Positions 4,061 through 63,836 of a DNA stretch of 64,000 nt are shown piece after piece. Source of the stretch: Patiria miniata. Its lineage: Eukaryota > Echinodermata > Asteroidea > Valvatida > Asterinidae. Location: the NCBI RefSeq assembly GCF_015706575.1, contig NW_024037076.1, forward strand, positions 5,800,777-5,864,776. Direction: 5' to 3'. A program made the translations under genes and the position numbers. Each line of letters opens with the position of its first letter. Within the stretch, counting starts at the first letter, position 1. The notes under the pieces were generated by a model, which saw nothing but the letters and a program-made list of their open reading frames with translations, did not search any database and had not been told where the DNA came from.

Positions 4061-4141
4061 ATGCTTCTCTTGTCGGTGCTTCTTGTCAGTTCCATCACGG
4101 TGGTTCACTCGGGCAAAATAGAGACAACTGCCGACTGTATG
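4061..4141 (+). CDS. Exon 1: start codon and signal peptide
   Basis: The start context is gggaaaATGc. The first 27 codons give a hydrophobic leader, [18 protein letters not shown], followed by KIETTADCM, which fits a cleaved signal peptide with cleavage near HS/G or SG/K. The exon ends in phase 0 at a consensus donor (gtaagt). No in-frame upstream ATG continues into this frame within the exon. This start was chosen because it yields a proper secretion signal directly ahead of the MMP propeptide exon. The 5' UTR is not delimited. Confidence 0.75.

Positions 4142-63836: not shown

Follow-up and report, generated by a model that had tools for sequence, protein, structure and literature searches.

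A predicted single gene joining a matrix metalloproteinase to MUC4-like mucin modules

Proteases and mucins are normally separate players, and matrix metalloproteinases (MMPs) act on mucins and matrix from outside. The locus analyzed here raises the question whether an MMP and a MUC4-like mucin can be encoded by one and the same gene, as had been suggested in a preliminary description of this DNA. The window, i.e. the complete stretch of 64,000 nucleotides under analysis, is eukaryotic animal DNA with a GC content of approximately 40% which is rich in introns and repeats. A total of 53 exons was reconstructed on the plus strand between positions 4061 and 63836 (Table 1). The borders of all internal exons are AG/GT, the phases agree throughout, and the joined reading frame comprises 2539 amino acids without a stop codon and remains open where the window ends. 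Exon 53 ends in an open phase-1 donor at 63837; thus, the gene extends past the window on its 3' side and contains at least 53 exons. Its median intron measures 743 bp, intron 2 measures 10.4 kb and is packed with repeats, and the joined chain carries 33 N-glycosylation sequons. The start, the end and the junction from 19816 to 20782 had been given exactly in the preliminary description, and its statement that the exons lie on one strand in continuous phase was confirmed by borders, phases and open frame.

Table 1. Exons and features of the gene model in the 64,000-nucleotide window.
Feature	Position	Strand	Evidence or remark
Exon 1: start codon and signal peptide, phase 0 out	4061-4141	+	First ATG of the frame; hydrophobic core with mean KD 2.66 over 10 aa; donor gtaagt
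Exon 2: MMP propeptide, PG-binding-like	6961-7078	+	AG/GT, phases 0/1; PG_binding_1 18.2 bits, cut-off 23
Exon 3: PRCGFPD cysteine switch, RRKR furin site, start of catalytic domain	17458-17669	+	Motifs, borders
Exon 4: middle of catalytic domain, altered structural-zinc ligands (LAHA to LAFA, HFDDDE to FFDDNE)	18509-18719	+	Alignment to MMP-2/MMP-3 structures
Exon 5: HExGHxxGxxH motif, Met-turn DAVMYPYY, end of catalytic domain, 14-residue Thr/Pro linker; phase 1 in and out	19604-19816	+	
Exon 5 tail, donor and start of intron 5	19807-19896	+	Homologous to 30610-30688 (exon 11 tail, donor, start of intron 11)
Exons 6-9: NIDO1	20782-20909, 22967-23272, 25981-26118, 28375-28546	+	Pfam
Exon 10: EGF	29930-30049	+	Pfam
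Exon 11: Ser/Thr/Pro-rich, 57% STP, 15-bp minisatellite (QPTSG repeats), ends with NTTNPG	30314-30619	+	
Exons 12-15: duplicated NIDO (NIDO2)	31937-32064, 33196-33501, 34313-34450, 35253-35418	+	Collinear with first copy
Exon 16: duplicated EGF	36059-36178	+	Collinear with first copy
Exons 17-22: EGF, HYR (38333-38611), two short Cys-rich exons, two HYR-like exons	37477-43844	+	Exons 19-22: no Pfam match above cut-off
Exons 23-27: NIDO3 (MUC4 position), mini exon 45547-45636; exon 27 also begins AMOP-like region	44588-48265	+	
AMOP-like Cys-rich region: end of exon 27, exons 28 (49270-49419) and 29 (50910-51020)	48169-51020	+	Position between NIDO and VWD; Pfam 10 bits
Exons 30-33: VWD with GDPH motif at 51974-51985	51963-54141	+	Pfam 3.7e-16; similarity to MUC2/MUC5 D domains
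Exon 34: Mucin-4-like C8-3 domain	54690-54950	+	PF23263, 5.6e-12
Exons 35-38: Ig/cadherin-like stretch and three EGF-type modules	55378-58656	+	Pfam Big_9 1.1e-5, EGF, cEGF
Exons 39-52: 14 small Thr/Ser/Pro-rich exons, each phase 1-1, 50% STP; partly 488-bp tandem array	59092-63309	+	
Exon 53: EGF-like module	63735-63836	+	Donor 63837 in phase 1

Pfam was run on 2523 of the 2539 amino acids of the joined chain, all but the 16-aa exon 51. The resulting E-values for Matrixin (7.9e-44), NIDO (1.8e-99 for two copies, 1.5e-25 for the third), VWD (3.7e-16) and C8-3_MUC4 (5.6e-12) exclude that these domains are due to chance. Ten long open reading frames outside the gene model showed no Pfam match, and a scan against Rfam gave no match either. 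No relatives were found among viral contigs. Matches in prokaryote genomes and plasmids were bacterial matrixins only and covered the catalytic part, and NCBIfam returned only weak matches to bacterial metalloproteases.

The protease part was compared with the MMPs of family M10A. Matrixin (PF00413) was matched over the whole length of the profile, and the catalytic domain aligned end to end with MMP-2 and MMP-3, the best matches of a sequence search against the PDB (E approximately 1e-33). The signal peptide (4061-4141), the cysteine switch PRCGFPD (17496-17516) and the Met-turn DAVMYPYY (19675-19698) reported in the preliminary description were all found, the two motifs being intact. Equally intact are the furin site RRKR in front of the catalytic domain (17541-17552, residues 95-98) and the catalytic-site motif HExGHxxGxxH (19630-19662). 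The PG-binding propeptide stayed below the Pfam cut-off. All these elements, from signal peptide and propeptide via the PRCGxPD switch and the RxKR site to the full-length Matrixin match, are also those of M10A enzymes. A furin site of the type RX[K/R]R is a feature of a subset of MMPs, e.g. MMP-11 and the MT-MMPs.

The structural zinc site of MMPs is formed by the ligands H168, D170, H183 and H196 (MMP numbering). Relative to MMP-2, three of these four are replaced in the protein described here (Asp by Leu, His by Phe in LAFA and His by Phe in FFDDNE), and the first His alone aligns. In the same alignment, the calcium loop retains its D-G and the motif FFDDNE its D and E. With its catalytic motifs intact and these three ligands exchanged, the enzyme is expected to be catalytic, yet it is unusual as an MMP. 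The loss of the ligands could affect the stability of the protein. A second difference to M10A enzymes concerns the part C-terminal to the catalytic domain, which here consists of NIDO, EGF, HYR, VWD and PTS modules. As stated in the preliminary description, hemopexin is absent from this position: the Pfam scan of the joined chain gave no hemopexin, and no hemopexin-like open reading frame was present on the plus strand from 19.8 to 64 kb. Hemopexin repeats are common in MMPs, but they are not universal.

For the C-terminal part the preliminary description had listed NIDO, EGF, HYR, NIDO, AMOP, VWD, EGF and a Thr-rich stalk. Following the Matrixin domain, this order was found again with HYR just at the cut-off (21.8 versus 21.7) and with the exception of AMOP, which stayed below the threshold (10 versus 25 bits). 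Accordingly, the region between NIDO3 and VWD is AMOP-like by position and cysteines, not by score. The number of NIDO domains had to be extended to three, NIDO1 and NIDO2 being related by a recent duplication inside the gene. The VWD domain is followed by C8-3_MUC4 (PF23263) and by EGF/cEGF modules, and a short Ig/cadherin-like stretch gave a weak Pfam match. When the PDB was searched by sequence, VWD matched MUC2, MUC5 and FCGBP, and EGF was the only match of the NIDO-EGF unit. The VWD domain contains the motif GDPH at residues 1722-1725, which is the putative self-cleavage site of MUC4 into alpha and beta subunits (PMC8660890).

In the succession from NIDO3 via the AMOP-like region, the GDPH-bearing VWD and C8-3_MUC4 to the EGFs, the protein agrees with MUC4 and MUC4-like proteins, and like them it has PTS-rich stretches. 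It differs from them by the N-terminal MMP, by two extra NIDO-EGF units and by the location of its two PTS-rich blocks (exon 11 and exons 39-52), the former separating NIDO1 from NIDO2, the latter following the EGFs, and neither in the MUC4 position. NIDO and EGF domains are also common to the nidogens; the nidogen-type G2F beta-barrel and the LDL-receptor YWTD propeller were not found by Pfam in the 2523 of 2539 amino acids scanned. Within coding exon 11, the 15-bp minisatellite occupies 30399-30553 with approximately 10 copies that are 92% alike. The 488-bp tandem array in the second PTS-rich block (62070-63323) bears pairs of phase-1 Thr-rich mini exons; thus, the stalk grows via duplication of exon pairs, and its length may vary between individuals.

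The assignment of both parts to one gene depends on the junction between exon 5 and exon 6. Exon 5 ends with ACCCTG in front of the donor gtaat, exon 6 starts with GGGTTT behind the acceptor ttgacag, and both borders are in phase 1. The intervening intron 5 has a size of 965 bp, which is ordinary for this gene. Reading through the donor of exon 5 leads to a stop after 18 codons at 19870, 54 nt past the donor. Such a short in-frame tail would be expected if two adjacent genes were present, namely a matrilysin-type MMP without hemopexin, of which examples exist, and, behind it, an independent MUC4-like gene equipped with a promoter and a signal peptide of its own. As signs of independent transcripts the preliminary description had named polyadenylation in the gap and a separate start of the NIDO part. 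Neither AATAAA nor ATTAAA is present in 19817-20781, compared to an average of about 1.5 per kb in the window. The best alternative first exon in intron 5 is a weak signal-peptide-like open reading frame with a phase-1 donor at 20568-20631. An alternative first exon of this kind occurs in 8% of random 965-bp pieces, which corresponds to the chance level, and the one found here is not in the portion that the second copy of the NIDO region has preserved. Moreover, the gap of just 965 bp would have to accommodate a 179-bp tandem repeat as well. This repeat occupies 20014-20498, centrally in intron 5, and is flanked by the two intron ends for which intron 11 has counterparts.

The same stretch bears on a locus with alternative ends, in which a short secreted MMP would be formed by readthrough of exon 5 and a long MMP-mucin form by splicing. 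The donor and the in-frame stop both exist, and a short MMP ending at 19870 is plausible. However, after this stop the 965 bp offer no poly(A) signal, and we regard two alternative ends as very improbable.

The strongest evidence on the junction was provided by a tandem duplication of the NIDO-EGF part inside the gene. The segment 19807-30142 is collinear with 30610-36283, with a DNA identity of 68-88% in exons and many intron pieces. The two NIDO-EGF copies share 81% amino acid identity with a dN of 0.10 and a dS of 0.20. The duplicated unit starts at 19807, so that it takes in 10 nt from the 3' end of the MMP exon together with its splice donor. Homology between intron 5 and intron 11 is seen at either end and covers the exon tail ACCAACCCTG as well as the donor. 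A local alignment of exon tail and intron start reached a score of 50 versus a maximum of 26 in 1000 shuffles, and none of 3918 other places in the window attained this score. In the second copy the donor belongs to the Thr/Pro-rich exon 11, which continues into NIDO2. Because the duplicated unit starts inside the MMP exon, the splice donor feeding NIDO appears to be the MMP exon's own. Its duplicate closes exon 11, in the mucin part, and runs into NIDO2; thus, splicing of the exon 5 donor to NIDO1 is the simplest reading. The existence of this common segment argues against two adjacent genes, which we consider unlikely. On genomic evidence, the single gene comprising the MMP, NIDO and MUC4-like parts is well supported by one open frame, matched phases and the duplicated segment of exon tail, donor, intron and NIDO.

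The boundaries of the duplication also have to be considered with respect to an assembly chimera, in which the MMP part was misjoined to a mucin gene. Exon 5 has only its final 10 nt in common with exon 11 at the start of the duplicated segment, which makes this a possible point of a false join, and the length and repeat content of intron 2 also count in favour of a chimera. A false join at exon 5, however, would need to be in frame within one exon. A comparison of the two linkers past these 10 nt gave a single 14-nt match, which is no more than suggestive. The match TTCCGGTnCnAACC, 13-25 nt upstream, hints at a homology that runs deeper into the linker. A dead MMP fragment would be at odds with the state of all five MMP exons, which are open, have correct borders and keep the catalytic residues. 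Chimera or pseudogene is, in our opinion, scarcely probable.

The best explanation for the observed gene structure, frame, domains and duplicated junction is a polypeptide of the order signal peptide, MMP, Thr/Pro linker, NIDO-EGF, PTS stalk, NIDO-EGF-EGF-HYR-EGFs, MUC4-like NIDO/AMOP-like/VWD (GDPH)/C8-3, EGFs, PTS stalk and EGF. With high probability, one secreted or membrane-tethered chain is the product of this gene, and in it a latent, furin-activated MMP would reside on a MUC4-like scaffold and act locally. After entry into the secretory path the cysteine switch would hold the zymogen latent until furin cuts after RRKR98. In contrast to other MMPs, the active protease would then remain covalently attached via the 14-residue Thr/Pro-rich linker to the NIDO, EGF, HYR and VWD modules. 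These may stand in for hemopexin and hold the protease on matrix, mucus or the cell surface, leading to local action. In this way the large adhesive glycosylated scaffold would confine proteolysis to the binding sites of NIDO, EGF, HYR and VWD in mucus, glycocalyx or matrix. If cleavage at GDPH takes place in the manner proposed for MUC4, the protease would be part of the N-terminal alpha chain, and release of this chain could set it free as well. A mucin with its own latent MMP would fix the site of the protease in mucus, glycocalyx or matrix. The MMP-mucin fusion in one gene suggested in the preliminary description is supported by frame, phases and the duplicated segment, and the roles suggested along with it (own shedding, mucus, matrix at an epithelium) are still proposals.

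The combination of an MMP with NIDO and MUC4 modules is not described in the open-access papers covered by the literature search, none of which contained both 'NIDO' and 'matrixin'; automatic annotations of such a protein may exist. A MUC4 core with added N-terminal domains is also seen in cnidarian mucin4-like proteins. The additional domain is TSP1 in the SOMP mucin4-like protein of Acropora digitifera (PMC4890752) and CUB, ZP, FN3 or SEA in the mucin4-like proteins of Actinia tenebrosa (PMC9080433); a protease domain is mentioned for neither of them. Echinoderm MMPs are mostly furin-activated and some are without hemopexin, two properties they have in common with the protein described here, but the layouts reported for them are the standard MMP domain structure only (PMC8467561). 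Given the well-supported single-gene model, the domain combination would be new and its parts known. If this is true, exon shuffling of phase-1 modules can supply MMPs with a targeting system other than hemopexin. Rather tentatively, one may think of a conserved class of self-tethered MMPs in some animal lineage. In such a class MUC4-type modules including NIDO would replace hemopexin, the structural zinc would be dispensed with, and GDPH cleavage would decide between retention at the surface and release of the protease-bearing alpha chain.

Several further repeats were observed in the introns. Intron 1 contains a telomere-like (GGGTTA)8 array at 4662-4829 between the inverted 16-bp repeats CGATGTTCCCCAATAC and GGGGAACATCGGTATT, which looks like a mobile element. 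In intron 2 two 300-nt stretches (11852-12151 and 12742-13041), 890 nt apart, are 100% identical and thereby far more alike than the other repeats of the window. Either the tandem duplication that produced this pair is very recent, or the pair is an artefact of the assembly. On both sides of exon 3 (15273-18240) there are nested repeats of approximately 90-150 nt, direct as well as inverted, which are probably copies of one foldback element. Finally, a degenerate 31-bp minisatellite with about 25 copies is located in intron 36 (56427-57216).
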